From: Pectinatus frisingensis
GTDB lineage: Bacteria; Bacillota; Negativicutes; Selenomonadales; Selenomonadaceae
Assembly (NCBI RefSeq): GCF_015732285.1
Contig: NZ_WIQU01000042.1
Coordinates: 1,145-65,144 of the forward strand
Reading direction: 5' to 3'
Length of the DNA: 64,000 bases
The first letter of the stretch is position 1; every line of letters begins with the position of its first letter. The position numbers and the translations under genes are program-made. Below are positions 9,126 through 37,149 of the stretch, piece by piece. The notes under the pieces are model-generated. The model searched no databases and had not been told where the DNA came from. It was given only the letters and a program-made list of their open reading frames with translations.

Positions 9126-9148
9126 ACATTGATTTTAGTCTTTTTTGG

Positions 9149-9182
9149 AAGTCTTGCAGCTACTATAGCAGGGCTTCTTTTT
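9149..9182 (+). terminator. Intrinsic terminator of tRNA-Val
   Basis: Stem AAGTCTTGC (9149-9157) with GCAGGGCTT (9168-9176), then TCTTTTT. It lies 24 bp after the CCA end. Confidence 0.75.
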
Positions 9183-9305
9183 CATTTGCAACTGCAAGTG
9201 CGGTATTTTTTATTTTTCATCATTTACTTTATAATTTTCAAAATATTCAAAGTTTATATTGACTATTTGTGTCTTAGTGAAGGGGATGACTCTTTTCTAT
9301 TAAAT

Positions 9306-9351
9306 ATAGTGAGATAGAACACGGATTAAGTAAGAAGTACCTGCTCACTAT
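9306..9351. repeat. Inverted repeat upstream of the chelatase operon
   Basis: Perfect 8-bp arms ATAGTGAG (9306-9313) and CTCACTAT (9344-9351) flank 30 bases. No T-run follows, so it is not a terminator. It may be an operator or leader structure for the operon beginning at 9479. The rest of the 353-bp gap (9126-9478) holds only AT-rich DNA. Confidence 0.4.
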
Positions 9352-9386
9352 GAGGAATATTAGTTAATATTATGGATATAATAGTG

Positions 9387-9417
9387 TTGACAGTATAACG
9401 ACAATATAGTTTATATT
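9387..9417 (+). promoter_or_regulatory. Candidate promoter of the chelatase operon
   Basis: TTGACA (9387-9392) is followed by an AT-rich -10 region; TTTATA at 17 bp or TATATT at 19 bp are the options. The CobN gene starts 62 bp further on. The -35 box is good, the -10 box ambiguous. Confidence 0.45.
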
Positions 9418-9478
9418 CAAACCGATGAACTTGATGTTAGAAAATGCAGAAACATTTTTGGGGATGGAGATATAGTAA

Positions 9479-12400
9479 ATGAAGACGGTTTTATTTTGTA
9501 CTAATATTACACGGCAGATAGTAATGATGCGTGAAACTATGCATGAATTGCAGCAAAACGGTGCCTTGGATAAAAGCTGCCAATGCATTTGGATAGATGA
9601 GAATACAGCATGGAGCGATGAATGTACGAACATACTCAGTGATGTGGATTTTTTATTGATAAAGTGGATGGGCACAGGGCTCGATACTGATTTTATGAAT
9701 AAATGTGCGGCTTATGCAGAAAAATACAAACTGCCGCATTATATAGATGCTGGTGATAATCAAGTACGAACCGAAGCTTTGTCGGAAAAGCAGATATTGC
9801 AGATTAAAAAATATTTTCTATATGGCGGACAACAGAATAATAAAAATCTTTGGCTGTATGTCAATAAGTGTATTGATGCTTCCGGCATACCTGCATCTGA
9901 ACCGGAGCTGCTTTATTGGTGTGGTATTTTTCACCCGGCCGCGGACGCTGTTTATACCAGCCTTGAAGAGTATAAACGCGGCTTTTACCATGAAGGATGG
10001 CCGACAATAGGAGTCATTTTTTACCGTGAAGAATGGATATGGAAAGATTTAGCTTATCAGACAGCTCTTATAAAAGAAATTGAACAGCGGAATATGAATG
10101 TGGTATGCGTGTTCAGTAATGGTCTGCCGGATGAAACCATGGGGGCACCCAGTCTGGAACAAGTTTTTACAAGCTTTTTCAGCAGTAATGGAATGCCGGT
10201 GATTGATGTATTAATAAACACAATGAAATTTTCACTGACCAGCAGCAGTTCCGTGACGATAAATTATCTGAAAAAATGGAATGTGCCGATTTTGCAGGCA
10301 TATACGCTTATGACAGAATATAAGGAATGGGAAAATAATATTGAGGGCATGAATGATATGGAGGTCTCGATAAGCATATCTTTACCTGAATTTGACGGTG
10401 TGCTGCATGGCCTGCCTATAGCTGCTAAAAAGATGCGCAAAGATAATTCATATTGGTACAAACCAATCGGCGAGCGAATAACAAAGATAGTCGAAAAAGC
10501 TTCTAAATGGGCTATTTTGCGGCATAAAAATAATAATGACAAGAAAATAGCTATTATTTTTCATAATTACCCGCCAAGTAATTCTAATATTGGTAGTGCC
10601 GTCGGACTTGACAGCATTGAAAGCATTCGACTGTTGCTGGCTGCCATGCGGCAATGCGGATATAAAGTTGACCATATTCCACCTGACGGAAAATCATTTA
10701 TCGATGAATTAACGGCAAGTGCGACTAATGACAAGAAAATGCTCACGCAATATCAGCTGGATAGAGCTGAAAAATTGACAGAAAAACAGTACAGACAGTT
10801 TTTCGATACCTTTACAGATAAAGTGCAGCAGCAGATGCACAAGGATTGGGGGACGCCACCGGGCAGTGTTATGGAGTATAAATACAACATAATAGTTCCG
10901 GGAACAATGAATGGCAATGTTTTTATAACTGTTCAACCATCACGCGGATTTGGAGAAGATCCTGATAAGATATACCATTCGCCTTTCACAGTACCTACCC
11001 ATCATTACCTGGCTTTTTATAAATGGCTGCGAGATGTGTGGAAAGCTGATGCTGTTGCACATATAGGCACGCATGGTTCACTGGAGTGGCTGCCGGGTAA
11101 GAACGCCGGATTGTCTGAAAACTGCTATCCTGATTTGGCATTAGGAAATCTGCCAAATGTTTACCCATACCTGATAACAATAACAGGCGAGGGGGTTCAG
11201 GCCAAACGCAGAGGCAGTGCCTGTCTTATAGCTCACTTGCCGGCACCGCAGTCACAGGCCGGGGTGTATGATGAATTGGCTGAACTGGAAAAATTAATGG
11301 ATGAATACATCAGCTTTCAACATGCTGACAATCCTAATCTGGTTCAGGCAGAAAAACTGATAATAGAAAAAGTCAGTGCAGCTGATTTGCAAAATGAAGT
11401 CATTCGAGACGAAAATAGACCATTTAGTGAATATGTAGCGGCACTGCATAATTATCTCACTGACTTGAAGAATATGCAGGTACATACCGGCTTGCATGTA
11501 TTGGGACAGGCGCCGCAAAAAGACGGGTTAGTTGAATATTTATGGCTGCTGACCAGGTTAAGCAACGGAACAGTGCCAAGTTTACCGGAAACTATAGCGC
11601 AGTATTATAAACTTGATTATCACAGCCTTTTGAAAAATAGCTCTGAGATGTATAAACCACTTAATATAACATATGGCATATTGGTTGACCGAATAACTGA
11701 ACAATGCCGTCAGATAATAAGACTATTACAGGCAAATGATTTTGATGAAGCAAAAATAACAGAAATATCAACCTTAGCTTGGATTAATGATGGCAGTGAT
11801 GCGGATAGGAAAAGTATCTTGCAGGTTTGCAAATATATTTGCGGTGAAATCTATCCCCATTTACTGCTTACAGTGCAGGAACAGGATAATATGCTGCGTG
11901 CTTTTGACGGACAGTATATCGAACCTGGACCATCTGGCGCACCAAGCAGCGGCGGAGCAGATTTGTTGCCGACCGGACGAAATTTTTATGGCATTGATCC
12001 GAGGACGCTGCCAACACCAGCGGCTTGGGAAGTTGGTAAAAAACTTGGCGATCAGGCGATAAATCGTTTTATTGAGGAAGAACAGCATTATCCGGAAAAT
12101 ATCGGCATTGTTTTATGGGCCGGAGCAAATATGCGCAGTCATGGGCAGTGTATTGCAGAATTTTTATATTTACTAGGGATAAAACCGCGCTGGCAGCGCG
12201 GCAGTTTGCGTGTTGTGGGAATGGATGTGATACCAGTTGAAGAATTGCAGCGGCCGCGTATAGATGTCACTGCCCGTATAAGCGGCTTGTTTAGAGATTC
12301 TATACCGTCAGCGATACAGCTTTTGGATGATGCTGTGCTTTTGGCAGCTTCATTGGACGAAGAGCCAGAGCAGAATTTTGTCAAAAAACATGTCAATGAA

Positions 12401-13192
12401 GACGCTTTAGCACTGCAAAGTGAAGGATTAAATGACGATGAGGCATGGCGTCAGGCTGCATTCAGAATTTTTGGTGATGAACCTGGGACTTATGGAGCCG
12501 GTGTAGGGGCTTTGCTGGAGGCAAAAAACTGGGATAGCATTGATGATATAGCTGATGTTTATGTTCGCTGGGGAGCACATGCTTATGGCGGTGAAGCAAA
12601 GGGCAAATATTTGCCGCAGCAATTTCGCAAACGTCTGGGAAGCTTGGACATTACAATCAAAAACGAAGATAATCATGAAGTAAACATGCTCAGCAGTGAT
12701 GATTATAATGCCTATCACGGCGGCATGATTGCGGCTGTCAGAAGCATAAAGGGGGCTGCTCCGCGCTCATACTGTGGAGACAGTACTGACCGCAGTCAGG
12801 TAACTATGCACAGTGTTCAGGAAGATACGAAACGTTTATTTCGCAGTGAAGCCATAAATCCCAAATTTATTAACGGTATGATGAAACATGGCTATAAGGG
12901 AGCCGCTGATATGGCTAATTATGTGGCACACAGTTTTCAATGGGATGCGACAAGCGATGTTATGGAAGATTGGATGTATGAAAAGTACGCTGAAAAATAT
13001 GCGTTTGACGGTAAGGTGCAGCAGTGGATGCGGGATGTAAATCCATGGGCATTGCAGAGATTGACCAGCGTTTTGCTTGAGGCCAATCAGCGGGGCTTGT
13101 GGAACGCTAAAGCGGAAACACTTGATAAACTGCGGCATTTGTATCTTTCCATAGAAGGAGAAATGGAGGATCGGACGGATGCCGGAGAGTAA
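9479..13192 (+). CDS. CobN-type tetrapyrrole metal-chelatase large subunit
   Basis: A 1237-aa protein of the CobN/BchH/ChlH family, the porphyrinoid-binding subunit of ATP-driven chelatases. Typical blocks include HIGTHGSLEWLPGKNAGLS, TVQPSRGFGEDP, LPTGRNFYGIDPRTLPTP and RWGAHAYGGEAKGKYLP. Length matches CobN. It overlaps the radical-SAM gene by 14 bp and is followed by ChlI-like and ChlD-like subunits, so a three-subunit AAA+ chelatase can be assembled. Aerobic CobN inserts cobalt late in B12 synthesis, but anaerobes insert cobalt early with CbiK/CbiX, so the real substrate is doubtful. Other CobN-like proteins of anaerobes have been linked to handling heme or other metallo-tetrapyrroles. 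Confidence 0.9.
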   Translation: MKTVLFCTNITRQIVMMRETMHELQQNGALDKSCQCIWIDENTAWSDECTNILSDVDFLLIKWMGTGLDTDFMNKCAAYAEKYKLPHYIDAGDNQVRTEALSEKQILQIKKYFLYGGQQNNKNLWLYVNKCIDASGIPASEPELLYWCGIFHPAADAVYTSLEEYKRGFYHEGWPTIGVIFYREEWIWKDLAYQTALIKEIEQRNMNVVCVFSNGLPDETMGAPSLEQVFTSFFSSNGMPVIDVLINTMKFSLTSSSSVTINYLKKWNVPILQAYTLMTEYKEWENNIEGMNDMEVSISISLPEFDGVLHGLPIAAKKMRKDNSYWYKPIGERITKIVEKASKWAILRHKNNNDKKIAIIFHNYPPSNSNIGSAVGLDSIESIRLLLAAMRQCGYKVDHIPPDGKSFIDELTASATNDKKMLTQYQLDRAEKLTEKQYRQFFDTFTDKVQQQMHKDWGTPPGSVMEYKYNIIVPGTMNGNVFITVQPSRGFGEDPDKIYHSPFTVPTHHYLAFYKWLRDVWKADAVAHIGTHGSLEWLPGKNAGLSENCYPDLALGNLPNVYPYLITITGEGVQAKRRGSACLIAHLPAPQSQAGVYDELAELEKLMDEYISFQHADNPNLVQAEKLIIEKVSAADLQNEVIRDENRPFSEYVAALHNYLTDLKNMQVHTGLHVLGQAPQKDGLVEYLWLLTRLSNGTVPSLPETIAQYYKLDYHSLLKNSSEMYKPLNITYGILVDRITEQCRQIIRLLQANDFDEAKITEISTLAWINDGSDADRKSILQVCKYICGEIYPHLLLTVQEQDNMLRAFDGQYIEPGPSGAPSSGGADLLPTGRNFYGIDPRTLPTPAAWEVGKKLGDQAINRFIEEEQHYPENIGIVLWAGANMRSHGQCIAEFLYLLGIKPRWQRGSLRVVGMDVIPVEELQRPRIDVTARISGLFRDSIPSAIQLLDDAVLLAASLDEEPEQNFVKKHVNEDALALQSEGLNDDEAWRQAAFRIFGDEPGTYGAGVGALLEAKNWDSIDDIADVYVRWGAHAYGGEAKGKYLPQQFRKRLGSLDITIKNEDNHEVNMLSSDDYNAYHGGMIAAVRSIKGAAPRSYCGDSTDRSQVTMHSVQEDTKRLFRSEAINPKFINGMMKHGYKGAADMANYVAHSFQWDATSDVMEDWMYEKYAEKYAFDGKVQQWMRDVNPWALQRLTSVLLEANQRGLWNAKAETLDKLRHLYLSIEGEMEDRTDAGE

Positions 13193-14231
13193 AATCAAAA
13201 TGCTGGTATTAAGCCTTACAGGTAAATGTAATTTTGCCTGCAGATATTGCTATGCAGCGGATCATGATAAGCAGATTATGCTGGCTGAAACGGCTATAAA
13301 GGCGGTAAGACTGGCGGCTCAGAGTGGAGAACGCTTTGTAATACAGTTCAGCGGTGGAGAACCATTGCTGAACTTTGATTGTCTTAAAACCGTTGTGCAG
13401 TACGTAGTGGATAATAAATTATTGGCGGATTTGCAGCTGCAAACCAATGCCTCATTGTTTACAGATGATATAGCCGTATTTTTATTTAAAAATAAAGTAG
13501 CTATAGGTATAAGTATGGACGGAAAACCGGCAATGAATGATAAACTGCGGTTGACCAGTCATGGTGATGGCGCCTCAAATGCAATACTGCATGGACTGGA
13601 AATTTTGAAGCGCAATAATATAGCTGTAGGGTTAACCTGTGTCGTTACTTCGGAAAATGTAAGCCGCTTACCGGAAGTTGTTGACTTTTCATATTATTTA
13701 GGGAATATACGTAAAATAGGTTTTGATATTTTGCGGGGGCAAGGACGGGGAACGGCTTTGCAGCCGCCACCGGCAAATGAGTTGCATCAGGTTATGCAAT
13801 TGGTGTATGAACGTGCAGAGCAACTGGCAAAATTAACCGGCTATAGGATTATTTTCGCACAAAAAGAACGGGTTGATTTATTGGCCTGCCATGCAGCCTG
13901 TGAATTTGGACATTGTTACGCTATGAATAAACAGGCTGCTTTCGTGGATTCCGCCGGAGATATTTATGCCTGCTCATCTCTGGTAGGAAATAGTGAGTTT
14001 TACATTGGCAATGTAGATGATGGAATAGATAAAAGCTTATTGAATAAAACAAGCATTGCAATAAAAGATTATATGTTGTTTTGTCGTTCCTGCAAGGATT
14101 TTAAGCTGTGCGGCGGGGGCTGTTTTTCTCGCTGGTATGGAACTGGAGATAGGGGACCGCATTTAAGCGAATGTGCATTAAAACGGGCGTCTATAGCTGC
14201 TGCGCAGTCGTCAAACAATAATTGCCATTGA
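13179..14231 (+). CDS. Radical SAM protein with SPASM domain
   Basis: A 350-aa radical S-adenosylmethionine enzyme. The cluster-binding motif CNFACRYC gives Cys17, Cys21 and Cys24; GGEP is at residues 59-62. The C-terminal part (about 235-340) carries a SPASM-type cysteine set, including CYAM, YACSS, CRSCKDFKLCGGGC and a late SECAL, which should bind auxiliary Fe-S clusters. SPASM enzymes act on peptides or on tetrapyrrole side chains. The gene overlaps the end of the CobN gene by 14 bp and is followed 21 bp later by the ChlI-like gene, so it belongs to the chelatase operon. I do not recognise a characterised orthologue. Confidence 0.9.
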   Translation: MPESKIKMLVLSLTGKCNFACRYCYAADHDKQIMLAETAIKAVRLAAQSGERFVIQFSGGEPLLNFDCLKTVVQYVVDNKLLADLQLQTNASLFTDDIAVFLFKNKVAIGISMDGKPAMNDKLRLTSHGDGASNAILHGLEILKRNNIAVGLTCVVTSENVSRLPEVVDFSYYLGNIRKIGFDILRGQGRGTALQPPPANELHQVMQLVYERAEQLAKLTGYRIIFAQKERVDLLACHAACEFGHCYAMNKQAAFVDSAGDIYACSSLVGNSEFYIGNVDDGIDKSLLNKTSIAIKDYMLFCRSCKDFKLCGGGCFSRWYGTGDRGPHLSECALKRASIAAAQSSNNNCH

Positions 14232-14252
14232 CTAAAAATAGGAGGAGATTTT

Positions 14253-15284
14253 TTGAAAAGAAAAGCTGTTTTTCCATTTACCGCAATAGTAGGGCAGGAA
14301 GATATGAAATTGTCATTGATTCTTAATGTTATCAATCCGGCACTGGGCGGGGTATTGATAAAGGGCGAAAAAGGAACGGCAAAATCAACGGCTGTACGTG
14401 CATTGGCAGAATTGCTGCCGGCTATGGAAAGTGTTCATAACTGTCGATTCCATTGTGATCCGAATGGGATAAATTATTTATGTGATGATTGTGCAGCAGT
14501 TATTAAGGCACACAAAAAACTACCGGTAGAATCGATAAAAATGAGGGTGGTTGAATTGCCGGTAAGTGCGACTGAAGATCGTGTTGTTGGGACTTTAGAT
14601 ATTGAACATGCGATTAAGCATGGCGAAAAGAAATTTGAACCGGGTATTTTGGCACAGGCCAATCGCAACATATTATATGTTGATGAAATTAATTTATTGG
14701 ATGATCATGTTGTCGATGTTTTGTTGGACGCTGCTGCCATGGGAATTAATACTGTTGAACGTGAAGGAGTATCATATTCACATCCGGCACGATTTGTTCT
14801 TGTAGGAACAATGAATCCTGAAGAAGGTGATATCAGGCCGCAGCTTTTAGATCGTTTTGGATTGTCTGTCATTGTAAAGGGTGAACATGAGCCTGATAAA
14901 CGGGTCGAAGTAATAAAGCGACGGTTAGCCTATGAGCAGGATGCAGATATTTTTATTGCCGGCTATAGTGAGCAGCAAAACGAGCTGGCTGGTAAAATAA
15001 TGCAGGCCAGACAATTATTGAATAAGATAACTGTTGACAATAAATTATTGGAGAGTGCAGCCAGACTTTCAATAGGGCTTGGAGTTGATGGACACAGAGT
15101 TGATATAACAGTAATAAAGACGGCAATTACGATAGCTGCTTTTCATAACAAAAAAGCAGTTGATCTGGATGATATCAAAGAAGCTGCCCGCTTAGTACTG
15201 CCGCATAGAATGCGCCGCAGGCCGTTTGAAGATAGCGGCTTTGATTGGAATAAAGTAGAAAATTTATTAAATGATAATGCGTAA
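14253..15284 (+). CDS. ChlI/BchI-like AAA+ chelatase ATPase
   Basis: A 343-aa AAA+ ATPase of the magnesium/cobalt chelatase I-subunit family. Walker A is GEKGTAKST (residues 38-46) and Walker B is in [10 protein letters not shown] (about 140-149). The typical [10 protein letters not shown] and [19 protein letters not shown] blocks follow. A four-cysteine insert (Cys64, Cys68, Cys77, Cys80) could bind zinc or an Fe-S cluster; it is seen in some anaerobe and archaeal homologues. Translation starts at TTG 14253 behind GGAGGAG; no better start exists. It would form the motor ring that drives the CobN-type subunit. Confidence 0.9.
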
Positions 15285-15296
15285 GGGGTTTAAACG

Positions 15297-17246
15297 ATGC
15301 TGATGCAAAATATGTATCCGTTCACTGCTATCGTCGGTCAGAAACAAATGAAAAAAGCCATGCTGGTTGCTCTTACTAATCCCAAAACCGGCGGATTGCT
15401 GATAGGCGGGCAGAAGGGAACTGCCAAAACGACCTTAGTGCGCAGCTGTAGAAAATTAATATATCCTCAGCAAATTATTGATTTACCGCTGAATGCCACA
15501 GAGGATATATTGTTTGGCAGCATAGATATTGAGGCAGCAGTAAATGAGGGTGTGCGTCGTTTTAATGCAGGCTTATTGAGCCGGGTTGATAATAATATTA
15601 TGTATATAGATGAAGTTAATTTGCTCCAGCGAAGACTGCTAACAACTGTTTTTGATGTTATGGAACTTGGAACCAACAAAATAGAACGTGACGGAATATC
15701 TTATGAACATAAAGCAGAGTTCACCATTGTTGCAACGATGAATCCGGAAGAAAATACACTTCCAGCAACTTTACTTGACCGTTTTGGCATGTACGTGGAT
15801 GTTGAGAGTGAAATGGATTTGTCTAACCGTGTCGCAATAATTAATCGTGAAATGGCATTTGAAAAAAACAGCGGGCGGTTTTGCAAAAAATATGCCGGCA
15901 AGACAGTAGAACTTGCCGCAAAAATTTCTAATGCCAGACATTTGGTCAAGCTGGTGCATATAAGTGATACAATGATACAATTAGCGGCACAAATGTGTGC
16001 TAAGGCTTTTTGCAGGGGACATCGTGCTGAATTTTATCTATTGGAAACCGCACGCACTTTGGCAGCATTGGATAACCGTTCCTATATTTTACCGGGAGAT
16101 ATGGATGAAGCTGCTGTTTTTGTTTTGGTTCACAGAACTAATACTCCGTCGCAGGAGGATAATGAAGCACAAAATGAATCTAATCAGACAGATAATAATG
16201 TAGATGAAGAGCAGGCTAGTGAACGCACTGGACAGCAGCCGCCGGCAGATAACGAAAATAGTGATGGCGATAATAAAGACGGTCAGGCATGCAGTGATGA
16301 TGGCAATGCTAAAGACGAAAATGAAAATACTAACAAATCTGACAACGACGATGGTAACCAACAGCCTAATATGAACTCACCGACAGCTGATGACAAAATC
16401 ACCGACATTGATAAAAACAGTTTCGTTCCGCATATGAAAGTTGAAAAGAAAATAGATCGTTTTAACCGGCATGGAACGGGCAAAAGAACCATTACAAAAA
16501 CTGATTTGAAGCAAGGACGGTATGTGCGTGCGGAAATTCCTAAGAACGATATTACTGACATAGCAATCGATGCCACAATACGGGCGGCTGCACCTTATCA
16601 AAAAGTGCGCCGTAAGAATAGCAAATGTGCTTTGAAAATAAAAGAAGAAGATATAAGACAGAAAGTACGCGAAAAACGTATAGGCAGTACATTTCTATTT
16701 ATCGTTGATGCCAGCGGTTCCATGGGGGCGTATGAAAGAATGCGTGCGGTTAAAGGGGCAATATTCTATATGTTGCAGGAAGCTTATCAAAAAAGAGACC
16801 GAGTGGGGATGATTGCTTTTAGGCGTCAGCAAGCCGAAGTATTGCTGCCAATAACACGAAGTGTTGATTTGGCGCAAAAATGTTTACAAGAATTACCGAC
16901 AGGCGGAAAAACACCACTGGCTGACGGACTGGCAAAAGCTCTACAGATATTATCGGTGCAGGCAAAAAAAGATATGGATATGGAGCCGATAGTCATATTG
17001 GTGACAGATGGACGTGCCAATGCCGTAGAAAAAAATGACGCCGATCCCATCGGCATGGCTATGCATATGGCCGAGCAAATACAGCAGCGGCATATAGCTT
17101 CGGTAGTGATAGATACCGAAGCGGACTTCATAAAACTTGGCATAGCCAGAGATATTGCAGACGTTATGGGTGCGTTATATTATAATTTGGATGGGCTGAA
17201 AAAAGAAAATATAATAAAAATAGTACAGAATATAAGTAATTTATAA
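15297..17246 (+). CDS. Fused ChlI-ChlD chelatase subunit (AAA+ plus VWA)
   Basis: A 649-aa protein. Residues 1-280 are a second AAA+ module with Walker A GGQKGTAKTT (about 38-47) and NIMYIDEVNLL. An acidic, low-complexity linker rich in Asp, Glu, Asn and Gln (about 283-385) follows. The C-terminal third is an integrin-I/VWA domain with MIDAS residues DASGSMG (about 470-476), the Thr in GGKTPLADG and the Asp in VTDGRAN. This is the D-subunit layout of Mg and Co chelatases. It starts 13 bp after the ChlI-like gene, completing the three-part chelatase. A run of AT-rich DNA then separates the operon from a convergent permease. Confidence 0.9.
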   Translation: MLMQNMYPFTAIVGQKQMKKAMLVALTNPKTGGLLIGGQKGTAKTTLVRSCRKLIYPQQIIDLPLNATEDILFGSIDIEAAVNEGVRRFNAGLLSRVDNNIMYIDEVNLLQRRLLTTVFDVMELGTNKIERDGISYEHKAEFTIVATMNPEENTLPATLLDRFGMYVDVESEMDLSNRVAIINREMAFEKNSGRFCKKYAGKTVELAAKISNARHLVKLVHISDTMIQLAAQMCAKAFCRGHRAEFYLLETARTLAALDNRSYILPGDMDEAAVFVLVHRTNTPSQEDNEAQNESNQTDNNVDEEQASERTGQQPPADNENSDGDNKDGQACSDDGNAKDENENTNKSDNDDGNQQPNMNSPTADDKITDIDKNSFVPHMKVEKKIDRFNRHGTGKRTITKTDLKQGRYVRAEIPKNDITDIAIDATIRAAAPYQKVRRKNSKCALKIKEEDIRQKVREKRIGSTFLFIVDASGSMGAYERMRAVKGAIFYMLQEAYQKRDRVGMIAFRRQQAEVLLPITRSVDLAQKCLQELPTGGKTPLADGLAKALQILSVQAKKDMDMEPIVILVTDGRANAVEKNDADPIGMAMHMAEQIQQRHIASVVIDTEADFIKLGIARDIADVMGALYYNLDGLKKENIIKIVQNISNL

Positions 17247-22051: not shown

Positions 22052-23332
22052 ATGATTAAAAAAGCAATTGGCAAAAGCAGCGATTTGCGCTGGATAACAA
22101 TAACTACGCTGCTTCTGGCAATCGGAGTGATACTGCGTATTATTTCACCTAATTTAGGAGGCATATCCCTCAATTGGAATATAGTTATGTATGCAACGGC
22201 TATTTTATTATGCCGGCCATCTCCGCGACAAGGTCTGGGAATCGGAATTGTTTCCGGAATAATAGCCACAATGACGTCAAAAGCTGCGTTGCCTTATGCT
22301 AACCTGATAAGCGATCCGGTAGCGGCCTTTATTTGTGCACTGCTGGTTAGGTGGTGCGTTTTTGATATAAAACTGGGTCGGCTGCAGATAGAACCTTTGG
22401 TGATAATATTCATAACTACGTTTATCAGCGGGGGTATATTTGTTACTTTGACTAAAGTAGTATTATCTTTACCGATGCCGCTTTATCTATATGCAATGCT
22501 GCCGGCGGTACTGTTGGTGGCAGCACTTGGTTCAGCTGCGGGGCAGTTGTTGTATTTTCCGGCAGCCAGGATATTCAATAATGATGGAATAAATAAAAAA
22601 GCATTTTTTCTGCAAAATATCGATCTGACAATTTCTAAAGGTGAGTTTTTTGTTTTGACCGGTGTAAATGGCAGCGGCAAGACAAGTTTGCTTTTATCGT
22701 TGGCCGGGGCAAAGCCGTCGTATCTTGGTGGATTTAAGAATTCTGATATACATATTGATGATATTGATATAGTAAAGGCCAGACCTGAAATTTTAAATAA
22801 TCAGACAGGTCTGGTAATGGCTGACTACGAGGCACAGTTGGTTACTGAAACAGTAGACGATGAAATTGCATTTTCCTTGGAAAACAAAGGTATGCTGCCG
22901 CAGCAGATTATTGAAAAGCAGCATGATGTTTTAAAAAAAGTCGGCTTAGAAAATATGGGCGGCAGGAAGGTCACTTCCTTGTCGGGTGGGCAAAAGCAGC
23001 GTTTGGTAATCGCTGCCGTGCTGGCAATGGATACTCCTATACTGGCTTTGGATGAACCTGTAGCAGCTGTTGATCCGGAAGGTGCCAAGGAGATATATGA
23101 TTTATTGTACCGTCTCAACAAGGAAGATGGTAAAACAATAATAGTTGCCGAACATGATTTAAAATATGTGCTGGACATTGCCTCACATATGGCGGTTATT
23201 GATAAAGGACAATTAAAATTCAGCGGTGAGAAACAGGTCTGCCTTGAATATATGTATACCAATAAAATTTATCCGGAAGTTATACCGCTGCGTTGGAAGA
23301 TACGCCGGGAAATGGGGCAGGAAGTATGCTGA
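22052..23332 (+). CDS. ECF transporter S-component fused to ATPase
   Basis: A 426-aa fusion. Residues 1-185 form about six membrane helices resembling an energy-coupling-factor substrate-binding S-component, with GLGIGIVSGIIATMTSK typical of the tryptophan-transporter-like group. Residues 190-420 are an ABC ATPase with Walker A TGVNGSGKTS, signature LSGGQKQRLVIAAVLAM, Walker B ILALDEP and the switch His in VAEHD. A second ATPase and a T-component follow in overlapping frames, so the set can form a complete dedicated importer. The substrate is a vitamin, amino acid or metal-like small molecule; sequence alone does not tell which. The ATG follows AAGGAAATG. Confidence 0.85.
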   Translation: MIKKAIGKSSDLRWITITTLLLAIGVILRIISPNLGGISLNWNIVMYATAILLCRPSPRQGLGIGIVSGIIATMTSKAALPYANLISDPVAAFICALLVRWCVFDIKLGRLQIEPLVIIFITTFISGGIFVTLTKVVLSLPMPLYLYAMLPAVLLVAALGSAAGQLLYFPAARIFNNDGINKKAFFLQNIDLTISKGEFFVLTGVNGSGKTSLLLSLAGAKPSYLGGFKNSDIHIDDIDIVKARPEILNNQTGLVMADYEAQLVTETVDDEIAFSLENKGMLPQQIIEKQHDVLKKVGLENMGGRKVTSLSGGQKQRLVIAAVLAMDTPILALDEPVAAVDPEGAKEIYDLLYRLNKEDGKTIIVAEHDLKYVLDIASHMAVIDKGQLKFSGEKQVCLEYMYTNKIYPEVIPLRWKIRREMGQEVC

Positions 23333-24135
23333 ATTTAAAAAATGTAACCTTTTCTTATTCATCAGGCAGTAAAATATTTGATGACATCAGTATCAATATT
23401 GACACTGATGCAATAACAGCGGTGGCAGGCCGTAATGGTACGGGAAAAACAACATTGACCAGATTGATTATGGGAATAATACATCCGCAAAGTGGTGTTA
23501 TTGAATTTGATGGTAAGCTTATCAGTGATAAACCGTCATACGTATTGGCAAAAAATATAGGCTATGTATTTCAAAATCCTGACCATCAGTTATTTGCCGC
23601 GACTGTTTACGATGAAGCAGCTTATGCACCGATGCAGCTTGGAATGGAAACAAAGCAGATACGAGAATGTGTTGATGGTGCTCTTGCGGCCACCGGATTG
23701 TCAGAAAAAGCGCACCTCATGCCGCAAACCTTGTCACTGGGTGACAAGCAGCGTTTATCAATAGCTTCGGCACTGGCAGCCAAGCCACGGATATTGATAC
23801 TTGACGAACCCACCTCGGGACAGGATTGCCGGGAACGTACAGTGCTCTTGCGCCTGATGCGGAAATTAAACAGTACTGGCCTGGGAATAATTTTAGTCAC
23901 ACATGATATGGATATCTTAGCGGAACACGCTGATAAGATGATAGTACTGGCTGATAAAAAAATAGCATATGCGGGGACACCGCGGCAACTGTTTGCCGAT
24001 GAAGAAAAGACTGTAAAGCTGGGGCTGGAGTTACCGGAAGCAGCTGTTATCGCAGCGGAAATGGGATTGGAACTTTGTCTTACACCTGCTGAGCTATATG
24101 GAAAAATGGCTGTATGGAGGGAGAAGAATGCCTGA
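23326..24135 (+). CDS. ECF transporter ATPase subunit
   Basis: A 269-aa energy-coupling-factor A-type ATPase. It has Walker A AGRNGTGKTT, the Q-loop YVFQNPDHQLFAATV typical of ECF ATPases, a signature motif reading LSLGDKQRLSIA in place of LSGGQ, Walker B ILILDEPTSGQD and switch His in VTHDMD. ATG 23326 is preferred because it overlaps the previous stop (ATGCTGA) and has GGGGCAGGA in front; a TTG upstream is less likely. It would pair with the ATPase half of the upstream fusion and dock on the T-component. Confidence 0.88.
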   Translation: MLNLKNVTFSYSSGSKIFDDISINIDTDAITAVAGRNGTGKTTLTRLIMGIIHPQSGVIEFDGKLISDKPSYVLAKNIGYVFQNPDHQLFAATVYDEAAYAPMQLGMETKQIRECVDGALAATGLSEKAHLMPQTLSLGDKQRLSIASALAAKPRILILDEPTSGQDCRERTVLLRLMRKLNSTGLGIILVTHDMDILAEHADKMIVLADKKIAYAGTPRQLFADEEKTVKLGLELPEAAVIAAEMGLELCLTPAELYGKMAVWREKNA

Positions 24136-24817
24136 AGAAAAAAATAACACAGATTTTGCTCCATTGACAAAATTATTCATGGCAATTACAGCATCTGTGG
24201 CAGCTTTATGCACTATTAATTTATATGCTTTAGCAATTTTGGCGGGACTTGAGATGATAGCAGCGGCAGTAATGGATGGCGGCAGGGTACTTTGGAAGGG
24301 TATTAGTATCTTAGCTGTTTTTGCAGTGATTTTGGCTGGGATTCAACTGCTTTTTATCACACCATTATTTTTGTCTGTCGGTTCGGCGTATAAGATGTTT
24401 ATAATGGCAGTATCACTTTTTATACTGGTGGCTACAACACCGACACAGGCAATAACAGCGGCACTTGTCAAACAGTGCCGCTTACCGTATGATTATGCTT
24501 TTATGATAACGGCGGTTTTGCGTTTTGTACCGGATTTGCTGAAGGAAAGCAAAGAAGTACGAGAAGCGCAATCCTGTCGAGGATTCCATCCTTCGAGAGA
24601 TCCATTGCGCCGTATCATTGATTATATGATGATTATAAAACCTATGGTGTTTAAAGCGATATCGCGCAGTGAAAATATGGCGATAAGCTTGACTCTGCGA
24701 GGATTTTCCGGTAAAAACAAACGAACCTTTATGGCAGCAACAAAGCTTTGCGGCAGCGATTATATAATTATGCTGGTAAATTTATTTATTTGTATTGCCG
24801 TAGTCAAATATTTTTGA
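24128..24817 (+). CDS. ECF transporter T-component (EcfT/CbiQ family)
   Basis: A 229-aa membrane protein with about five helices. The C-terminal cytoplasmic coupling helices contain REAQSCRGFHPSRDPLRR and SLTLRGFSGKNKRT, variants of the paired Ala-Arg-Gly motifs by which T-components contact the two ATPases. The ATG (24128) overlaps the end of the ATPase gene and follows GGAGGGAG. It converges on the next gene, whose 3' end it nearly touches (14 bp). Confidence 0.87.
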   Translation: MPEEKNNTDFAPLTKLFMAITASVAALCTINLYALAILAGLEMIAAAVMDGGRVLWKGISILAVFAVILAGIQLLFITPLFLSVGSAYKMFIMAVSLFILVATTPTQAITAALVKQCRLPYDYAFMITAVLRFVPDLLKESKEVREAQSCRGFHPSRDPLRRIIDYMMIIKPMVFKAISRSENMAISLTLRGFSGKNKRTFMAATKLCGSDYIIMLVNLFICIAVVKYF

Positions 24818-26865: not shown

Positions 26866-27833
<968 letters not shown>

Positions 27834-27870
27834 GCAATTTAATACGATATAATGGCGACCAATGCAAAAA

Positions 27871-27992
27871 GGGACTGTCGCATGGATGACATTGATTTCA
27901 TAAAGATGCAATCCACTGTACTATGCAGGTTTCCCTCCTCTAAGGACGGGGAGGAAAATGGAATATTGCATATTATGTGCGACAGTCCTTTT
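27871..27992 (+). repeat. Structured 3'-UTR repeat element, copy B (nifH-nifI1)
   Basis: Perfect 11-bp outer stem GGACTGTCGCA (27872-27882) with TGCGACAGTCC (27978-27988), followed by TTTT. Interior: GACATTGATTTCATAAAGATGC, ATGCAAT pairing with ATTGCAT, hairpin CTG...CAG, hairpin CCTCCTC/GGGGAGG, and GGAATATTGCATATTATG. It sits 38 bp after nifH and 18 bp before the nifI1 start. A strong stem here should cut or stabilise the transcript so that nifH mRNA exceeds that of nifDK. Confidence 0.75.
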
Positions 27993-28010
27993 GAAATAGG
28001 AGGAACAAAA

Positions 28011-28346
28011 ATGAGTGATTTATTAATGATTCGTGCAGTAGTCCGCCCGGAAAAGTCGGCTGATGTACTTGCAGAACTCTTGGATGCCGGTTATGTGGGG
28101 GTAACCAAAGAGGAAGTATACGGCCGCGGCCGGCAAAAAGGGATAGTAGTTGGTGAAGTGCATTATGATGAACTGCCGAAAGAATTGCTGATAATTATTG
28201 CTGAAGCTGCGGATAAAGAAGATATAGTGCGTATCATTATGAAAAATGCCCGTACCGGTGAGAATGGCAATTTCGGTGATGGCCGTATTTTTATAAATAA
28301 AGTTGAAGAAGCTTATACAATAAGTTCCGGCAAAGCCGGTCTGTAG
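28011..28346 (+). CDS. nifI1: Nitrogenase-specific PII protein NifI1
   Basis: A 111-aa GlnB/PII-family protein. With NifI2 it binds and inhibits dinitrogenase in response to ammonium, relieved by 2-oxoglutarate, as shown for methanogens. The N-terminal MIRAVVRPEKSADVLAELLDAGY and the T-loop segment VYGRGRQKGIVVG fit. ATG 28011 has AGGAGG in front; a longer in-frame extension to 27852 would translate the structured repeat and is rejected. Its position after nifH marks it as NifI1. Confidence 0.92.
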   Translation: MSDLLMIRAVVRPEKSADVLAELLDAGYVGVTKEEVYGRGRQKGIVVGEVHYDELPKELLIIIAEAADKEDIVRIIMKNARTGENGNFGDGRIFINKVEEAYTISSGKAGL

Positions 28347-28359
28347 GGAGGTTCGAATA

Positions 28360-28764
28360 ATGAAAGAAATAATGGCGTTCCTGCGGATGAATAGGATAAA
28401 TGATACTAAGGCGGCTTTGGCAAAGGCCGGATATCCTTCTTTTACAGTGTCAAAGGCAGTGGGGCGCGGCAAAAAACCATTGGCGACGGAAGCAATAAAT
28501 GTAATAGTTGAAAATGCCGGAGAGGTACCGGCCAATGCCATTGGAGTGCATCTTTCCGAAGGTACACGGCTAGTTCCGCGTCGTTCGTTTTCTTTAATCG
28601 TCGATGATTCACAAGTGGAACTCGCTGTAAATACAATAATTACCATTAATCAGACCGGACAGCCAGGTGATGGTAAAATTTTTGTAATGCCTGTTACAGG
28701 TGGTTACAATATTAGAACAGGCCAATATCAAGAAGTTGAAATGCTGCAGTTAGGAGAGGATTGA
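28360..28764 (+). CDS. nifI2: Nitrogenase-specific PII protein NifI2
   Basis: A 134-aa PII-family protein, longer in the T-loop region than NifI1, with MKEIMAFLRMNRINDTKAAL, a VGRGKKP element and C-terminal GDGKIFVMPV. It partners NifI1 in fast post-translational control of nitrogenase. It starts 14 bp after nifI1 behind GGGAGG and ends 1 bp before nifD. Confidence 0.92.
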   Translation: MKEIMAFLRMNRINDTKAALAKAGYPSFTVSKAVGRGKKPLATEAINVIVENAGEVPANAIGVHLSEGTRLVPRRSFSLIVDDSQVELAVNTIITINQTGQPGDGKIFVMPVTGGYNIRTGQYQEVEMLQLGED

Positions 28765-28765
28765 A

Positions 28766-30367
28766 ATGGACGCACGTGAAGCTGTTTTAGATAAATATTC
28801 CGGTCGTGTATTCAAGAATAGAAAAGATCATATCATTGAATTAGATGAGGCCGGTATACCAAAAGAAATAGCAGCCAACAGTCGTTCTGTTCCGGGACTT
28901 ATGATCAACCGGGGCTGCTGCTATGCAGGTTGTAAAGGAGTTGTATTGGGACCTTTGCGTGATACGGTGGTGATAACACATGGTCCTATTGGCTGCGGAT
29001 ATTATACGTGGGGGACAAGGCGCAATAAGGCAGATGCTCCGGATGGCCGCAATTTCATTCAATATAGTTTTTCAACCGACGTGCAGGAAACGGATATAGT
29101 TTTTGGTGGTATGAAAAAACTTCATCAAGCGATAAAAGAAGCTGTGGAAATATTTCATCCTCGTGCCGTTATGATTTGTTCAACTTGTCCGATAGGACTT
29201 ATTGGTGATGATACCAAAGCGGTGGCCGCTGAAGTAGAAAAAGAGTTTGGCATTACCTGCATTGCTTATAGTTGTGAAGGATATAAAGGCGTAAGTCAAT
29301 CAGCTGGACACCATATTGCCAACAACGGTCTGATGCAAAGGGTAATCGGTTCAGCAAATGATGAAGTGAAGGAAAAAGCTTTTCGTATAAATATATTGGG
29401 TGAGTATAATATTGGCGGTGATGGCTGGGAACAGGAACGCCTGCTGAAAAAAATCGGCTATGAAGTGGTTGCTGTATTGACCGGTGATGGTTCTTTTGAA
29501 GCTCTTACCCACGCCCACACAGCTAATTTGAATTTGGTGCAATGTCATCGTTCTATAAATTACATCGCAGAAATGATGAAAACTAAATATAATATTGACT
29601 GGATAAAAGTTAATTTTATCGGTATTGATGAAACAATCAGGACCTTGCGGGAAATAGCCGATTATTTTGATAATGACGAAATAAAAAAACGCACCGAAGA
29701 GGTAATTGGTGAGGAACTTGAATCTATAGCCGAAGAAAGAAAATTTTATCGGTCAAAATTAGAAGGTAAAACAGCCGGTGTTTTTGTCGGTGGTTCACGT
29801 TCACATCATTATCAAAATGTGCTGAAGGATTTTGGTGTCAAAACTGTCATAGCCGGCTACGAATTTGCGCATCGTGATGATTATGAAGGTCGTGAAGTCC
29901 TTCCCAATATAAAACTTGATGCCGACAGTAAAAACATTGAGACGATAACTGTACAGCCTGATAAAGAATTTTATCATGTGGCATTGGATAAAGAAAGATT
30001 TGAAGAATTGCGCAGACAAAATGTCGAACTTGAATATTATAAGGGTATGTTTAAAGATATGGGAGACGGAACTATAACTGTTGATGATTTTAATCATTAT
30101 GAAACAGAGAAAGTGCTGGATATATTTAAACCTGATATTTTTTACTCTGGAATAAAAGATAAATATATGATACAGAAAAAGGGATTTCCTTCTAATCAGT
30201 TACATTCCTATGACTACAGCGGACCTTATGCCTGTTTTAAAGGTGCGATAACATTTGCCAGAAATACGTATTTGAGTATTTATGCACCAGCTTGGAAAAT
30301 GATTGTACCGCCTTGGCGGACAAAACCAACTTTAGAAGGTACGATGGGAGATGAAAATTATGCTTGA
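28766..30367 (+). CDS. nifD: Nitrogenase MoFe protein alpha chain
   Basis: A 533-aa NifD. P-cluster ligands correspond to Cys51, Cys77 and Cys141; cofactor ligands to Cys260 (NLVQCHRS) and His480 (LHSYDYSGPY); His182 in SQSAGHHIAN matches the catalytic His195 of Azotobacter. A roughly 50-residue insert (about 375-428) after FAHRDDYEGR is the hallmark of the Clostridium pasteurianum type. Retained Gln178 and His480 support a molybdenum enzyme rather than V or Fe-only. It overlaps nifK by 8 bp. Confidence 0.96.
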   Translation: MDAREAVLDKYSGRVFKNRKDHIIELDEAGIPKEIAANSRSVPGLMINRGCCYAGCKGVVLGPLRDTVVITHGPIGCGYYTWGTRRNKADAPDGRNFIQYSFSTDVQETDIVFGGMKKLHQAIKEAVEIFHPRAVMICSTCPIGLIGDDTKAVAAEVEKEFGITCIAYSCEGYKGVSQSAGHHIANNGLMQRVIGSANDEVKEKAFRINILGEYNIGGDGWEQERLLKKIGYEVVAVLTGDGSFEALTHAHTANLNLVQCHRSINYIAEMMKTKYNIDWIKVNFIGIDETIRTLREIADYFDNDEIKKRTEEVIGEELESIAEERKFYRSKLEGKTAGVFVGGSRSHHYQNVLKDFGVKTVIAGYEFAHRDDYEGREVLPNIKLDADSKNIETITVQPDKEFYHVALDKERFEELRRQNVELEYYKGMFKDMGDGTITVDDFNHYETEKVLDIFKPDIFYSGIKDKYMIQKKGFPSNQLHSYDYSGPYACFKGAITFARNTYLSIYAPAWKMIVPPWRTKPTLEGTMGDENYA

Positions 30368-31724
30368 TATGACACCAAAAAAATTGGCAGTCAGAAAAGC
30401 ACTGAGGATAAATCCGGCTAAAACCTGCCAGCCGGTGGGTGCAATGTATGCCGCACTGGGAGTGCATCGCTGTATGCCGCACAGTCATGGTTCACAAGGC
30501 TGTTGTTCATATCATCGGACCTTTCTCGCACGTCATTTTAAAGAACCGGCTATTGCCACGACAAGTTCCTTTTCGGAAGGTGCTTGCGTATTTGGTGGCG
30601 GCAGTAACTTGAAAAAAGCGGTAAAAAATATCTTTGATATATATAATCCGGATATTATTGCCGTGCATACCACCTGTCTCAGTGAAACTATCGGTGATGA
30701 TCTTAATACACTTATTCAGCAGCTTGATATACCGGCAGGGAAAATAGTTGTTCATACTAACACGCCCAGTTATGTCGGGTCACATATCAATGGCTTTGCC
30801 AATATGATGAGTGGTTTTATAAAGTATCTCAGCGAAAAAAATGCTGTACCAAACGGGAAAATAGGCATTTTCCCCGGTTTTGTCAATCCGGGTGATATGC
30901 ATGAATTAAAAAGAATAGCTAAACTGCTCGGTGTCAAGTATATAATGTTCCCCGATACTGACGGAACAATGAACTCTGCACTTACCGGGCACTATGAAAT
31001 GTATCCTAAGGGCGGGACGACAATACAGGAAATACGTGAATTGGGCGGTGCACAGCATGTTTTGGCTTTGGGCGAAATAACCAGCTGTACACCGGCCATG
31101 GATCTCAAGCGGAAATGCGGTGTGGATTTTACAGCATTGCCGCTGCCGATTGGTGTGGAAGCCACTGATAGATATATTATGGCTTTGTCGCATTTGAGCA
31201 GACGGGAAGTACCAGCGGAAATTGAAGAAGAACGAGGTCAGCTTCTTGACATCATGATAGATTCACATGCTTATTATGGTGATAAAAGAGTGGCCATCGC
31301 CGGAGATCCTGATACGGTTCTGGGATTGGCGGCATTTTGCTTGGAATTGGGCATGAAACCGCGTTATATGATAACCGGAACACCTGATGAAAAGTTTAGC
31401 AAAAAAGCCAAAGAACTTCTTTTGAAATACGGTGTGACTGATTGCATTGCCAAAGCTAATACGGATCTGTTTGAACTGCATCAGCTGATGAAAAATAAAC
31501 CGGTGGACTTATTGATCGGCGGCACGCACTGTAAGTATATTGCCCGTGCAGAAGATGTACCGTTTGTCAGAGCCGGGTTTCCCATACTGGATCGTTATGT
31601 TCATCCCTATATGCCGCTTGTCGGTTATCGGGGAGCCATGCGGTTGATTGAACTCATTTGCAATACGTTGCTTGATCGTCAGGATCGTGATGCAGCTGAT
31701 AAAGATTTTGAGTTGGTAATGTAG
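30360..31724 (+). CDS. nifK: Nitrogenase MoFe protein beta chain
   Basis: A 454-aa NifK that pairs with NifD and shares the P-cluster. Ligand cysteines are visible in KTCQPVGAMY (Cys23), GSQGCCSYH (Cys48) and TTCLSETIGDD. Start 30360, MLDMTPKKLAVRKALRINPA, matches the short N-terminus of the Clostridium pasteurianum protein; it lacks the roughly 50-residue N-terminal extension of proteobacterial NifK. The start overlaps the nifD stop. A new promoter lies downstream, so this ends the first nif transcript. Confidence 0.96.
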   Translation: MLDMTPKKLAVRKALRINPAKTCQPVGAMYAALGVHRCMPHSHGSQGCCSYHRTFLARHFKEPAIATTSSFSEGACVFGGGSNLKKAVKNIFDIYNPDIIAVHTTCLSETIGDDLNTLIQQLDIPAGKIVVHTNTPSYVGSHINGFANMMSGFIKYLSEKNAVPNGKIGIFPGFVNPGDMHELKRIAKLLGVKYIMFPDTDGTMNSALTGHYEMYPKGGTTIQEIRELGGAQHVLALGEITSCTPAMDLKRKCGVDFTALPLPIGVEATDRYIMALSHLSRREVPAEIEEERGQLLDIMIDSHAYYGDKRVAIAGDPDTVLGLAAFCLELGMKPRYMITGTPDEKFSKKAKELLLKYGVTDCIAKANTDLFELHQLMKNKPVDLLIGGTHCKYIARAEDVPFVRAGFPILDRYVHPYMPLVGYRGAMRLIELICNTLLDRQDRDAADKDFELVM

Positions 31725-31876
31725 ATGAGAATAATCAAAGCATTATTAAAAAGTTTCAAAAACAATAAAAAATATAATGCATAGAACAGAATTATTTATT
31801 TTTATTATCTTTATAGACAGACAATATATATAACACATATTATATAATTATTGCTTATTTTATTAAATATAGACTA

Positions 31877-31994
31877 TTGTATTCTTGTAAAGTTTTGTGT
31901 ATAATAAATAAAAATGAATAATAATTATAAAGAGCTTGCCGATAGCCCTCTAATACAATGATGTATTGATGTATTAGGGGGTTTTCTGTTTTTT
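31877..31994 (+). promoter_or_regulatory. nifE promoter and leader terminator
   Basis: TTGTAT (31877-31882), 17 bp, TATAAT (31900-31905) forms a good promoter. About 35 nt into the transcript comes an intrinsic terminator, CCCTCTAATAC (31946-31956) with GTATTAGGGGG (31971-31981) and a T-rich tail to 31994. A weaker upstream stem AGAG/CTCT overlaps its left arm. Thus the nifE transcript seems to be attenuated, or the hairpin mainly ends nifK read-through. The remaining DNA of this 330-bp gap is AT-rich. Confidence 0.6.
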
Positions 31995-32054
31995 AGCAAA
32001 AACTGAAACAAGCTGGGTAAAAATGTACTGTGCAGTGAGGGGAAGGTGCAGGTT

Positions 32055-33401: not shown

Positions 33402-33435
33402 TATCAGTGGTTTTTCAAAGAAGGGAAGAACAGTT

Positions 33436-36099: not shown

Positions 36100-36192
36100 T
36101 TGTCGGCCATCCGGCAGCGGCAGGTTTTGCTGATAATTTATTTTAGGCAACAGATGCCGTTGATCGGATGATTGATTTTAAGGAGGAGCAAC

Positions 36193-37149
36193 ATGATAGT
36201 GGATGCTACTTTATGCTATATGGAAACGTCAACAGCAAAACAGCAGTATATGATGCTTATGGCTCTCACCCGACTGCCGATTGATGCCATAGAAATGACT
36301 GTAGTAGTATACAATAATATTGTTAGAATGAAATTGCCCCGGCAAAAATATATTTTACGGGTAAAGAATAAATATGATATAGAAAATTATCCCGGCTTTC
36401 ATTACTACGTGAAGTCGATTAATATAGATAAAGATTCTGATAAAAAATGGATAGAACAGGTTATGTATGATACATCGGGCAGAGCTGCAGCAAGACGTAT
36501 TATTGTTATTGATGAAGTGTCAGTAATTAACATGTGTGAACAGTTTTGCACATGGATAAGAAATGGAAAACTTTACTTGGAACCGCTTAACTATATCGAG
36601 CAGGCGACAGCATTGGCATATACGTGGTTGAAATGCGGGGGGAATTCAGTTATTACTGCTTTTTGCGGTCTTGGCAACCATGCACCTTTAGAGGAAGTGC
36701 TGATGACACTTCATGTAACGGGGATAAAAAGACTTATAAAGCCACTTAATTTCAGTGAATTGAAAAAGGCGGCAGGAAATATTGCGATATCACCGGTTAA
36801 ACCAGTTGTGGGGGCAGAAATATTTGCAGTGGAATCAGGAATACATGTTGATGGAATAAAAAAAAATCCCCAGTTATATGAACCATATCCACCTGAATTA
36901 GTGAATGCCAGTCGTCGTATTGTTCTGGGTGATATGTCTGGTAAAAGTTCTATTGAGGCTAAATTAAAAGAGTATAATTTGGTCTGTGGCAAAATTGATA
37001 CAGTGAAAATTCTTGAGATTGTAAAACAAAAATCACATGATTTGCACAGAGCAATAACTGATGAGGAGTTTTGTAATTTAGTGAAAATGATAGGATGTGC
37101 TGGCAGTGCAGAAAAAAAAATTTCATATAGTAGATACAACACTGCGTGA
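36193..37149 (+). CDS. nifV-omega: Homocitrate synthase subunit, NifV omega
   Basis: A 318-aa protein covering the C-terminal half of homocitrate synthase, recognisable by FAVESGIHVDGIKKNP, GDMSGKSSIEAKL and an N-terminal barrel remnant. In Clostridium pasteurianum homocitrate synthase is split into omega and alpha chains, both needed for activity. ATG 36193 follows AAGGAGGAG. Its 3' end overlaps the alpha gene by about 45-50 bp. It would supply homocitrate, the organic ligand of FeMo-cofactor. Confidence 0.88.
   Translation: MIVDATLCYMETSTAKQQYMMLMALTRLPIDAIEMTVVVYNNIVRMKLPRQKYILRVKNKYDIENYPGFHYYVKSINIDKDSDKKWIEQVMYDTSGRAAARRIIVIDEVSVINMCEQFCTWIRNGKLYLEPLNYIEQATALAYTWLKCGGNSVITAFCGLGNHAPLEEVLMTLHVTGIKRLIKPLNFSELKKAAGNIAISPVKPVVGAEIFAVESGIHVDGIKKNPQLYEPYPPELVNASRRIVLGDMSGKSSIEAKLKEYNLVCGKIDTVKILEIVKQKSHDLHRAITDEEFCNLVKMIGCAGSAEKKISYSRYNTA

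Follow-up and report, generated by a model that had tools for sequence, protein, structure and literature searches.

The locus considered here includes a gene of the CobN family. Earlier work, as related in the accessible part of Rocha et al. (PMC6460266), separated a B12-regulated CobN from BtuS and ChlH, and a B12-regulated CobN is thus not new in itself. According to the available part of a 2025 study by Nath et al. (PMC12583661), reliable annotation is not possible for most of the bacterial and archaeal members of the CobN family that fall outside its anchored clusters, and there are archaeal members whose function is unclear. CobW next to cobN is described in the available excerpt of PMC7689651, and Group IV nitrogenase-like enzymes are treated, in that of PMC11423573, without cobN, chelatases or cobalamin. 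We analyzed a 64,000-nt stretch of Pectinatus frisingensis DNA (the window; all positions refer to its + strand), in which four co-directional genes spanning 9479-17246 encode a CobN-type large chelatase subunit, a SPASM radical S-adenosylmethionine (rSAM) enzyme, and ChlI- and ChlID-type subunits. We consider it rather probable that this operon provides the chelatase and radical enzymes at the core of a module that processes corrinoids in anaerobes, working towards metal removal, exchange or some other direction, pure insertion apart. Our literature search, with subscription journals mostly outside its coverage, returned no paper that, in its accessible parts, describes linkage of CobN to an rSAM or nitrogenase-like gene, and none joining nitrogenase-like genes and a cobalamin riboswitch.

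CobN and radical-SAM genes across genomes

Our survey of the class was based on rSAM orthologues at E <= 1e-60, which were found in 36 of 200 relatives, the P. frisingensis genome included; the other 35 loci were examined as stretches of up to 20 kb. CobN lies on the rSAM strand in 27 of these 35 stretches and within 200 bp in nine of the 27. ChlI or ChlID occurs in 30, and at least one of CobN, ChlI and ChlID in 33, with neither chelatase part found in L038 and L055. At the level of genomes, CobN is present in 35 of the 36 with rSAM, as compared with 31 of the 164 others. In addition, a collection of named genomes gave 80 best rSAM loci when searched with alignment A1 (a search with the single rSAM protein gave none). 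Among the 18 closest of these (L111-L127, L141), CobN was found within 10 kb in 17, including loci of Acetobacterium bakii, Desulfovirgula, two archaeal metagenome-assembled genomes, Treponema and Alkalibaculum, the exception being L115 (Sporomusa), which has ChlI/ChlID and CbiZ in place of CobN. It should be noted that these 18 are not independent, as L126 and L127 lie on one contig and L141, L116 and L118 appear to repeat G168, G077 and G084. The 62 more distant SPASM loci contain CobN in only two instances (L131, L132). A search of 394 genomes of the phylum yielded 15 further loci outside the class, all 15 with CobN in the stretch (within 10 kb), that of L217 being of a second CobN type. 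As the linkage is kept across phyla, chance association of CobN and rSAM is unlikely. The original prediction had proposed such a neighbourhood search and had named lack of linkage as its own refutation; linkage was found to be conserved.

Recurrent neighbours were identified by clustering, with one representative of each checked against domain models. They comprise a PF01497 binding protein, ATP-binding cassette (ABC) ATPases, CbiZ (PF01955), CbiK (PF06180), a CN_hydrolase amidase (PF00795), a TIM-barrel protein (PF01261), an ABC-2 exporter (PF01061), and NifH-like (PF00142) and NifD/K-like (PF00148) proteins. TonB receptors and a BtuC-like permease were checked in the P. frisingensis genome itself, while ExbB, ExbD and TonB were named by eye. 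In two Clostridia loci, genes resembling a CbiM-type cobalt transporter were recognized by eye. Two CbiK genes (L062 1184-2101, L100 8578-9573) have, by eye, signal-peptide-like N-termini and are possibly periplasmic. A 112-aa two-repeat protein was also seen in seven searched loci (L097 6035-6373; L032/L141, L033, L055, L113, L114), beside NifHDK-like genes or rSAM.

The cobalamin riboswitch (RF00174) occurs in 28 of the 36 loci scanned, out of 70 in total (class 18/22, named 5/7, phylum 5/7), while about three riboswitch-bearing loci would be expected among 36 if the density in P. frisingensis (13 in 2.9 Mb) is applied to all genomes. Of the 18 class loci with a riboswitch, 16 have it at the head of a series of co-directional genes (gaps <=600 bp) to which CobN or rSAM belongs; in L032, for example, this series reads NifH-NifD-NifK-BtuF-BtuC-CobN-rSAM-CbiZ. 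In Acetobacterium bakii, a riboswitch precedes genes that by eye resemble cbiM/N/Q/O, about 2 kb downstream of rSAM. As Negativicutes riboswitches are, according to the accessible part of PMC9600662, mostly promiscuous among corrinoids, the riboswitches do not name one corrinoid.

In P. frisingensis the block is split, such that CobN, rSAM, ChlI and ChlID lie in the window and the NifHDK-like, BtuC-like, TonB receptor and CbiZ genes on contig C40. There, the gene order is TonB receptor, 112-aa repeat protein, NifHDK-like genes and BtuC-like permease. A group of opposite orientation comprises the binding protein, CbiZ, the TIM-barrel protein, an ABC ATPase and a second receptor; it is followed by TonB, ExbB and ExbD. 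Two of the 13 riboswitches of the genome lie between the second receptor and TonB, such that both the CbiZ/receptor genes and the TonB/ExbB/ExbD genes are headed by a riboswitch. The congener G004 has a single block made up of the 112-aa protein, NifHDK-like genes, permease, CobN, rSAM, ChlI and ChlID. The P. frisingensis permease matches BtuC models best, below cut-off, and the top model for one of its TonB receptors is that of the B12 receptor (140.7 of 600 bits).

The original prediction held that no B12 genes surround the operon, which is true of the window, although not of the genome, where CbiC, two CbiK, CbiL (above cut-off, adjoining one CbiK) and the 13 riboswitches are found. It had also expected that in an anaerobe other enzymes would insert cobalt, and the two CbiK bear this out. 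With these genes, corrin synthesis by the early-cobalt route is to be expected, and as CbiK is present in the same genome, CobN looks surplus to that route. Across the 200 genomes, CbiC accompanies rSAM in 36 of 36, and CobN is missing from 120 of the 183 CbiC genomes, so that CobN is not generally required for B12 synthesis in the class.

The proteins of the operon and the nitrogenase-like partner

The four genes (Table 1) are tightly packed, the CobN stop and rSAM start overlapping by 14 bp and rSAM and ChlI being separated by 21 bp. That a full class I chelatase and a SPASM enzyme share one tight operon, with CobN and rSAM overlapping, had already been proposed, and the open reading frames (ORFs) and domain models agree. 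A tRNA-Val gene lies upstream and, downstream on the opposite strand, a gene for a transporter of the drug/metabolite type (model matches below cut-off).

Table 1. Features of the chelatase/radical-SAM operon in the window and the basis of their assignment
Feature	Position	Strand	Basis
CobN-type large chelatase subunit, 1237 aa	9479..13192	+	PF02514, TIGR02257, solved structures, tree
SPASM radical-SAM (rSAM) enzyme, 350 aa	13179..14231	+	PF04055, alignment A1 (24 orthologues)
ChlI/BchI-type AAA+ subunit, 343 aa, TTG start in ORF list	14253..15284	+	TIGR02442, TIGR02030
ChlID subunit, 649 aa: N-terminal AAA+, Asn/Asp-rich linker, C-terminal VWA with DASGSM	15297..17246	+	TIGR02442, TIGR02031, PF13519
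Stretch between tRNA-Val and CobN, without cobalamin riboswitch	9126..9478	+	riboswitch scan

The window CobN, the single one found in a search of the P. frisingensis genome, scores 1271 bits with PF02514 and 946.8 bits with the late-insertion CobN model TIGR02257, over its cut-off of 822, and remains under the cut-off of the BchH model (813.7 against 829 bits). Among solved structures, it scores 702 bits with CobN 7c6o, 531 with ChlH and 391 with HmuS, and it is 226 aa shorter than the solved HmuS chain 9d26 (1463 aa). ChlI (498 bits with TIGR02442, 428 with TIGR02030) and ChlID (636 bits with TIGR02442, 442 with TIGR02031) are each under cut-off; ChlID also matches the VWA model PF13519 and is, from its predicted domains, a D-type subunit carrying its own AAA domain. 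The AAA+ and VWA partner subunits expected of a CobNST-type chelatase are thus present in the operon as ChlI and ChlID.

The CobN tree (51 rows) was built by a quick method with long branches flagged, which should be considered for all placements. The window CobN falls in a 21-row clade of rSAM-linked CobNs (support 100), and the other rSAM-linked CobNs form groups of 11 rows (support 94) and four rows (support 100). Five plasmid reference CobNs, of which four lie near CobW or B12-synthesis genes and one (Nonomuraea) is unannotated, make up a separate clade (support 100), and the Halorussus CobN stands alone; the tree gives no settled branching order among the rSAM-linked groups, the plasmid references and Halorussus. 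BchH and two HmuS-type rows lie outside a split of support 81. The window CobN groups neither with the late-insertion reference CobNs nor with HmuS, and the tree and scores place it on the CobN side of the family, outside the clade of mostly aerobic plasmid CobNs. In comparison, the highest score of the reference L233 is with HmuS 9d26 (405 bits), ahead of CobN 9uk9 (378), and an examined HmuS-type locus has no AAA+ partners in the stretch seen, while the window CobN keeps them. A B12-type CobN in a genome without CbiK or CbiX had been put forward as a possible refutation; CobN does lie on the cobaltochelatase side, but outside the plasmid-reference clade and in a genome with CbiK. The second CobN type, six rows from Clostridia clusters, is a distinct clade (support 100) and is found in or near the same clusters in L121, L122, L126, L215 and L216, while in L217 it is the sole CobN. 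It may mean that there are two chelatases per pathway.

In the rSAM enzyme, CxxxCxxC (C17, C21, C24) together with C246, C265, C302, C305, C311, C315 and C332 is invariant in 24 of 24 aligned orthologues, and this arrangement fits what we take to be the SPASM pattern of CxxxCxxC plus seven Cys. Among the NCBIfam matches listed (25 of 73), all are below cut-off; the best is PapB, a ranthipeptide maturase, with 149.5 of 340 bits. The heme-enzyme models AhbC (74.6 of 650 bits) and NirJ (71 of 515) do not reach cut-off, and AhbD is not among the matches listed. With 5wgg as the nearest solved structure (144 bits), the enzyme looks, from its sequence, like a subfamily of its own. A ribosomally synthesized and modified peptide as its substrate was considered and gained no clear support: when ORFs of 18-95 aa were compared in the 3 kb around rSAM, no family recurred in more than four class loci, although a distant precursor is possible, and the pieces common to L037 and L054 fall inside riboswitches.

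Blocks in the Negativicutes often include a NifH-like protein and two PF00148 proteins (the HDK set). With a D-like profile, matches at E <= 1e-40 were obtained in 54 of the 200 genomes, and in 38 of these the score exceeds about 185 bits. Of these 38, 36 have CobN (vs 30 of the 162 others) and 30 have rSAM. In an alignment of seven D-like and five K-like rows, with the window's own NifD as reference, the position of NifD C260, which we assume to be the cofactor ligand, is Gly in all seven D-like rows, while three conserved Cys, presumably the P-cluster ligands, are kept in all 12. Such a loss of the cofactor ligand would fit a tetrapyrrole reductase like DPOR or CfbCD. The K-like rows (100/100) and D-like rows (94/96) form clades apart from Nif, Anf and three other NifDK-like pairs of the genome, and the curated cut-offs are not reached by the NifH-like (CfbC, 378 of 402 bits) or K-like (BchB, 73 of 490 bits) proteins.

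Several other nitrogenase-related genes were observed. In L060, L062 and L063, CobN is directly preceded by short NifK-like ORFs (229-260 aa), perhaps remnants of the HDK set. A nif cluster in the window (26925-38000) includes an 887-aa protein (33436-36099) with NifK/NifN-like, NifB (over cut-off) and weak NifX parts. Elsewhere in the genome are an Fe-only nitrogenase (L106 6910-11204; AnfD 1044 bits, over cut-off) and, at L110 1474-17375, a NifH-like gene and three NifDK-like pairs by ABC transporter genes, whose D subunits keep the active-site Cys and which are possibly methylthio-alkane or isethionate reductases. The window also contains a CRISPR array (52-559) of 28-base repeats with a 60-base period (RF01317, nine copies among the matches listed), and an energy-coupling factor (ECF)-type transporter (22052-24817) whose first gene fuses a membrane domain to an ATPase.

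A proposed corrinoid-processing module and its alternatives

From the riboswitches, CbiZ and BtuC-like permeases of the relatives, we infer that the substrate is a corrinoid, and it is probable, as originally proposed, that the operon acts on a tetrapyrrole outside the normal pathway. In the module, corrinoids would be imported via a TonB receptor, a PF01497 binding protein, a BtuC-like permease and an ABC ATPase, and would be trimmed by CbiZ, often also by the CN_hydrolase amidase. CobN, powered by the ChlI/ChlID AAA+ motor, would then move the metal of the corrin ring, and the SPASM enzyme, joined in many Negativicutes by the nitrogenase-like HDK reductase, would alter the macrocycle or side chains. 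We somewhat favour removal or exchange of the metal, by which cobalt or a reusable corrin would be regained from foreign or damaged corrinoids. Corrinoid processing in this broad sense uses every conserved part. As for the direction, the retained AAA+ subunits speak for insertion, and removal or exchange is favoured by the lack of CobW, by the CbiK route and by the presence of the exporter and of ring-active partners; the sequence does not decide. A more specific version, anaerobic demetallation or dismantling of the B12 ring, in which ATP-driven CobN takes out or exchanges cobalt and rSAM and the nitrogenase-like reductase open or rebuild the corrin, is put forward only tentatively.

Corrinoid processing has some drawbacks that need to be considered. 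Known class I chelatases insert metal, and no enzyme precedent for cobalt removal from a corrin was found. CobN is absent from eight of the 35 class stretches (distant or on a separate contig in G186 and G193, with G132 lacking it altogether), 31 of the 200 genomes have CobN without rSAM, and all linkage and co-occurrence counts share ancestry. NifD-like genes are likewise imperfect companions: rSAM is absent from eight of the 38 NifD-like genomes and CobN from two, six of the 36 rSAM genomes have no NifD-like gene, and the D-like subunit was found in only three of 398 phylum-sample genomes, all of P. frisingensis' own family. CobN, rSAM and NifD-like are thus not obligate partners. DPOR and CfbD, according to the available part of PMC12552129, do not have all of the P-cluster Cys that are found in the HDK set, which is therefore not simply DPOR or CfbCD. 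The best models for the rSAM enzyme are peptide maturases. For the second TonB receptor, a siderophore model ranks first (115.8 bits) and B12 second (91.8), and the binding protein, best matched below cut-off by PGF-CTERM-anchored and F420-0 types, scores higher with heme IsdE (32.6 bits) than with BtuF (27.0), both below cut-off. Finally, as no cobalamin riboswitch was found before the window operon (relaxed settings included), in front of the NifHDK-like genes on C40 or in the G004 stretch, B12 control of the chelatase/rSAM core is not demonstrated in the genus.

The alternative that survives best, though it is somewhat unlikely, is that CobN-ChlI-ChlID puts cobalt into imported metal-free or mis-metallated corrinoids, with the other enzymes restoring the ring or side chains, after which the corrinoid would be remodelled into the native cobamide. 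The AAA+ motor subunits are retained as in known insertion chelatases, the uptake genes, CbiZ and riboswitches fit salvage, and CobN is placed on the CobN side of the family. However, the CobW motif was found in none of the 70 rSAM loci and not in the window, vs four of five CobN reference loci (Halorussus likewise lacks it), and plain insertion needs no ring-active partners. Moreover, the CbiK route, which is present here, has no metal-free corrin intermediates.

It is improbable that the module serves to make a cobalt or nickel tetrapyrrole not yet described, by an F430-like logic in which a chelatase is combined with amide chemistry, with reduction of the nitrogenase-like kind and with a radical step. 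The enzyme classes do resemble F430 assembly (a chelatase with NifH/NifD homologues), and the NifD-like site has no active-site Cys, but the context is dominated by uptake genes, CbiZ and cobalamin riboswitches.

An HmuS-like insertion or removal of heme iron is less probable still. The CobN relative HmuS removes iron from heme, as stated in the accessible text of PMC12583661, TonB and ABC transporters could carry heme, and the IsdE score of the binding protein, although far below cut-off, points the same way. Yet this reading, for which we looked in neighbourhoods, trees and riboswitches, found no support: the context holds cobalamin riboswitches, BtuC-like permeases and CbiZ, and CobN, with its AAA+ partners, lies far from the HmuS-type rows. 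The heme link of the original prediction is therefore not supported. The enzyme at 63175 that it called AhbC/D-like matches NirJ2 best (490 of 500 bits, the gene being cut by the window end) and AhbD at 299 of 500. This NirJ2-type gene (window 63175-63999; L235 1320-3591) adjoins a second rSAM gene that is NirJ1-like by eye.

Least probable of all is that the operon encodes a normal late-insertion cobaltochelatase for B12 synthesis and that the rSAM gene is an unrelated neighbour. In favour of this are TIGR02257 (above cut-off), the proposal of ChlI/ChlD as CobS/CobT substitutes (PMC9227772) and the use of CobN and ChlID as a late-insertion signature in genome surveys (PMC6593275, PMC8123684; all three seen in their accessible parts). 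Against it stand two CbiK and CbiC in the genome, the many CbiC genomes without CobN, the position of CobN outside the plasmid-reference clade and an rSAM linkage that spans phyla.

For one anaerobic group of CobNs, the conserved context thus points to corrinoids as a substrate class that can be tested, and to specific partners. If cobalt is indeed removed, this would be a biological route for the breakdown or recycling of B12-type cofactors, bearing on the cobalt and B12 economy of guts and sediments, and it would add a nitrogenase-like family tied to tetrapyrroles.

Comparison with known systems

With the late-insertion CobNST/ChlI-ChlD cobaltochelatase, the operon shares the large-subunit family and the AAA+ and VWA partners; it differs in the CbiK of its genome, a CobN outside the five-row reference clade, the lack of a CobW motif nearby and the SPASM neighbour. 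The heme dechelatases HmuS/BtuS belong to the same PF02514 superfamily and resemble the relatives' loci in TonB-dependent uptake, but the window CobN scores lower with HmuS (391 bits) than with CobN (702), lies outside the HmuS-type branch, is shorter, has AAA+ partners and belongs to a cobalamin context. CbiZ salvage and remodelling loci under cobalamin riboswitches have the ABC importer, CbiZ, TonB receptor and riboswitch that are seen in the relatives, which add to these a complete chelatase, the SPASM enzyme and often the nitrogenase-like reductase. The latter is like DPOR BchLNB and CfbCD in combining a NifH-like ATPase with D/K-type subunits and in a D-like subunit without the active-site Cys, and unlike them in forming clades of its own, in keeping three P-cluster-type Cys in both subunits and in remaining under the curated cut-offs shown. 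A further similar system is the cobN/bchD/bchH/bchI cluster of an Antarctic Chlorobium, with cbiZ and B12 transport genes, which likewise represents an anaerobe with CobN, Mg-chelatase-type subunits and the anaerobic B12 route; in the available part of that paper (PMC8620254), no rSAM or nitrogenase-like partner is mentioned.

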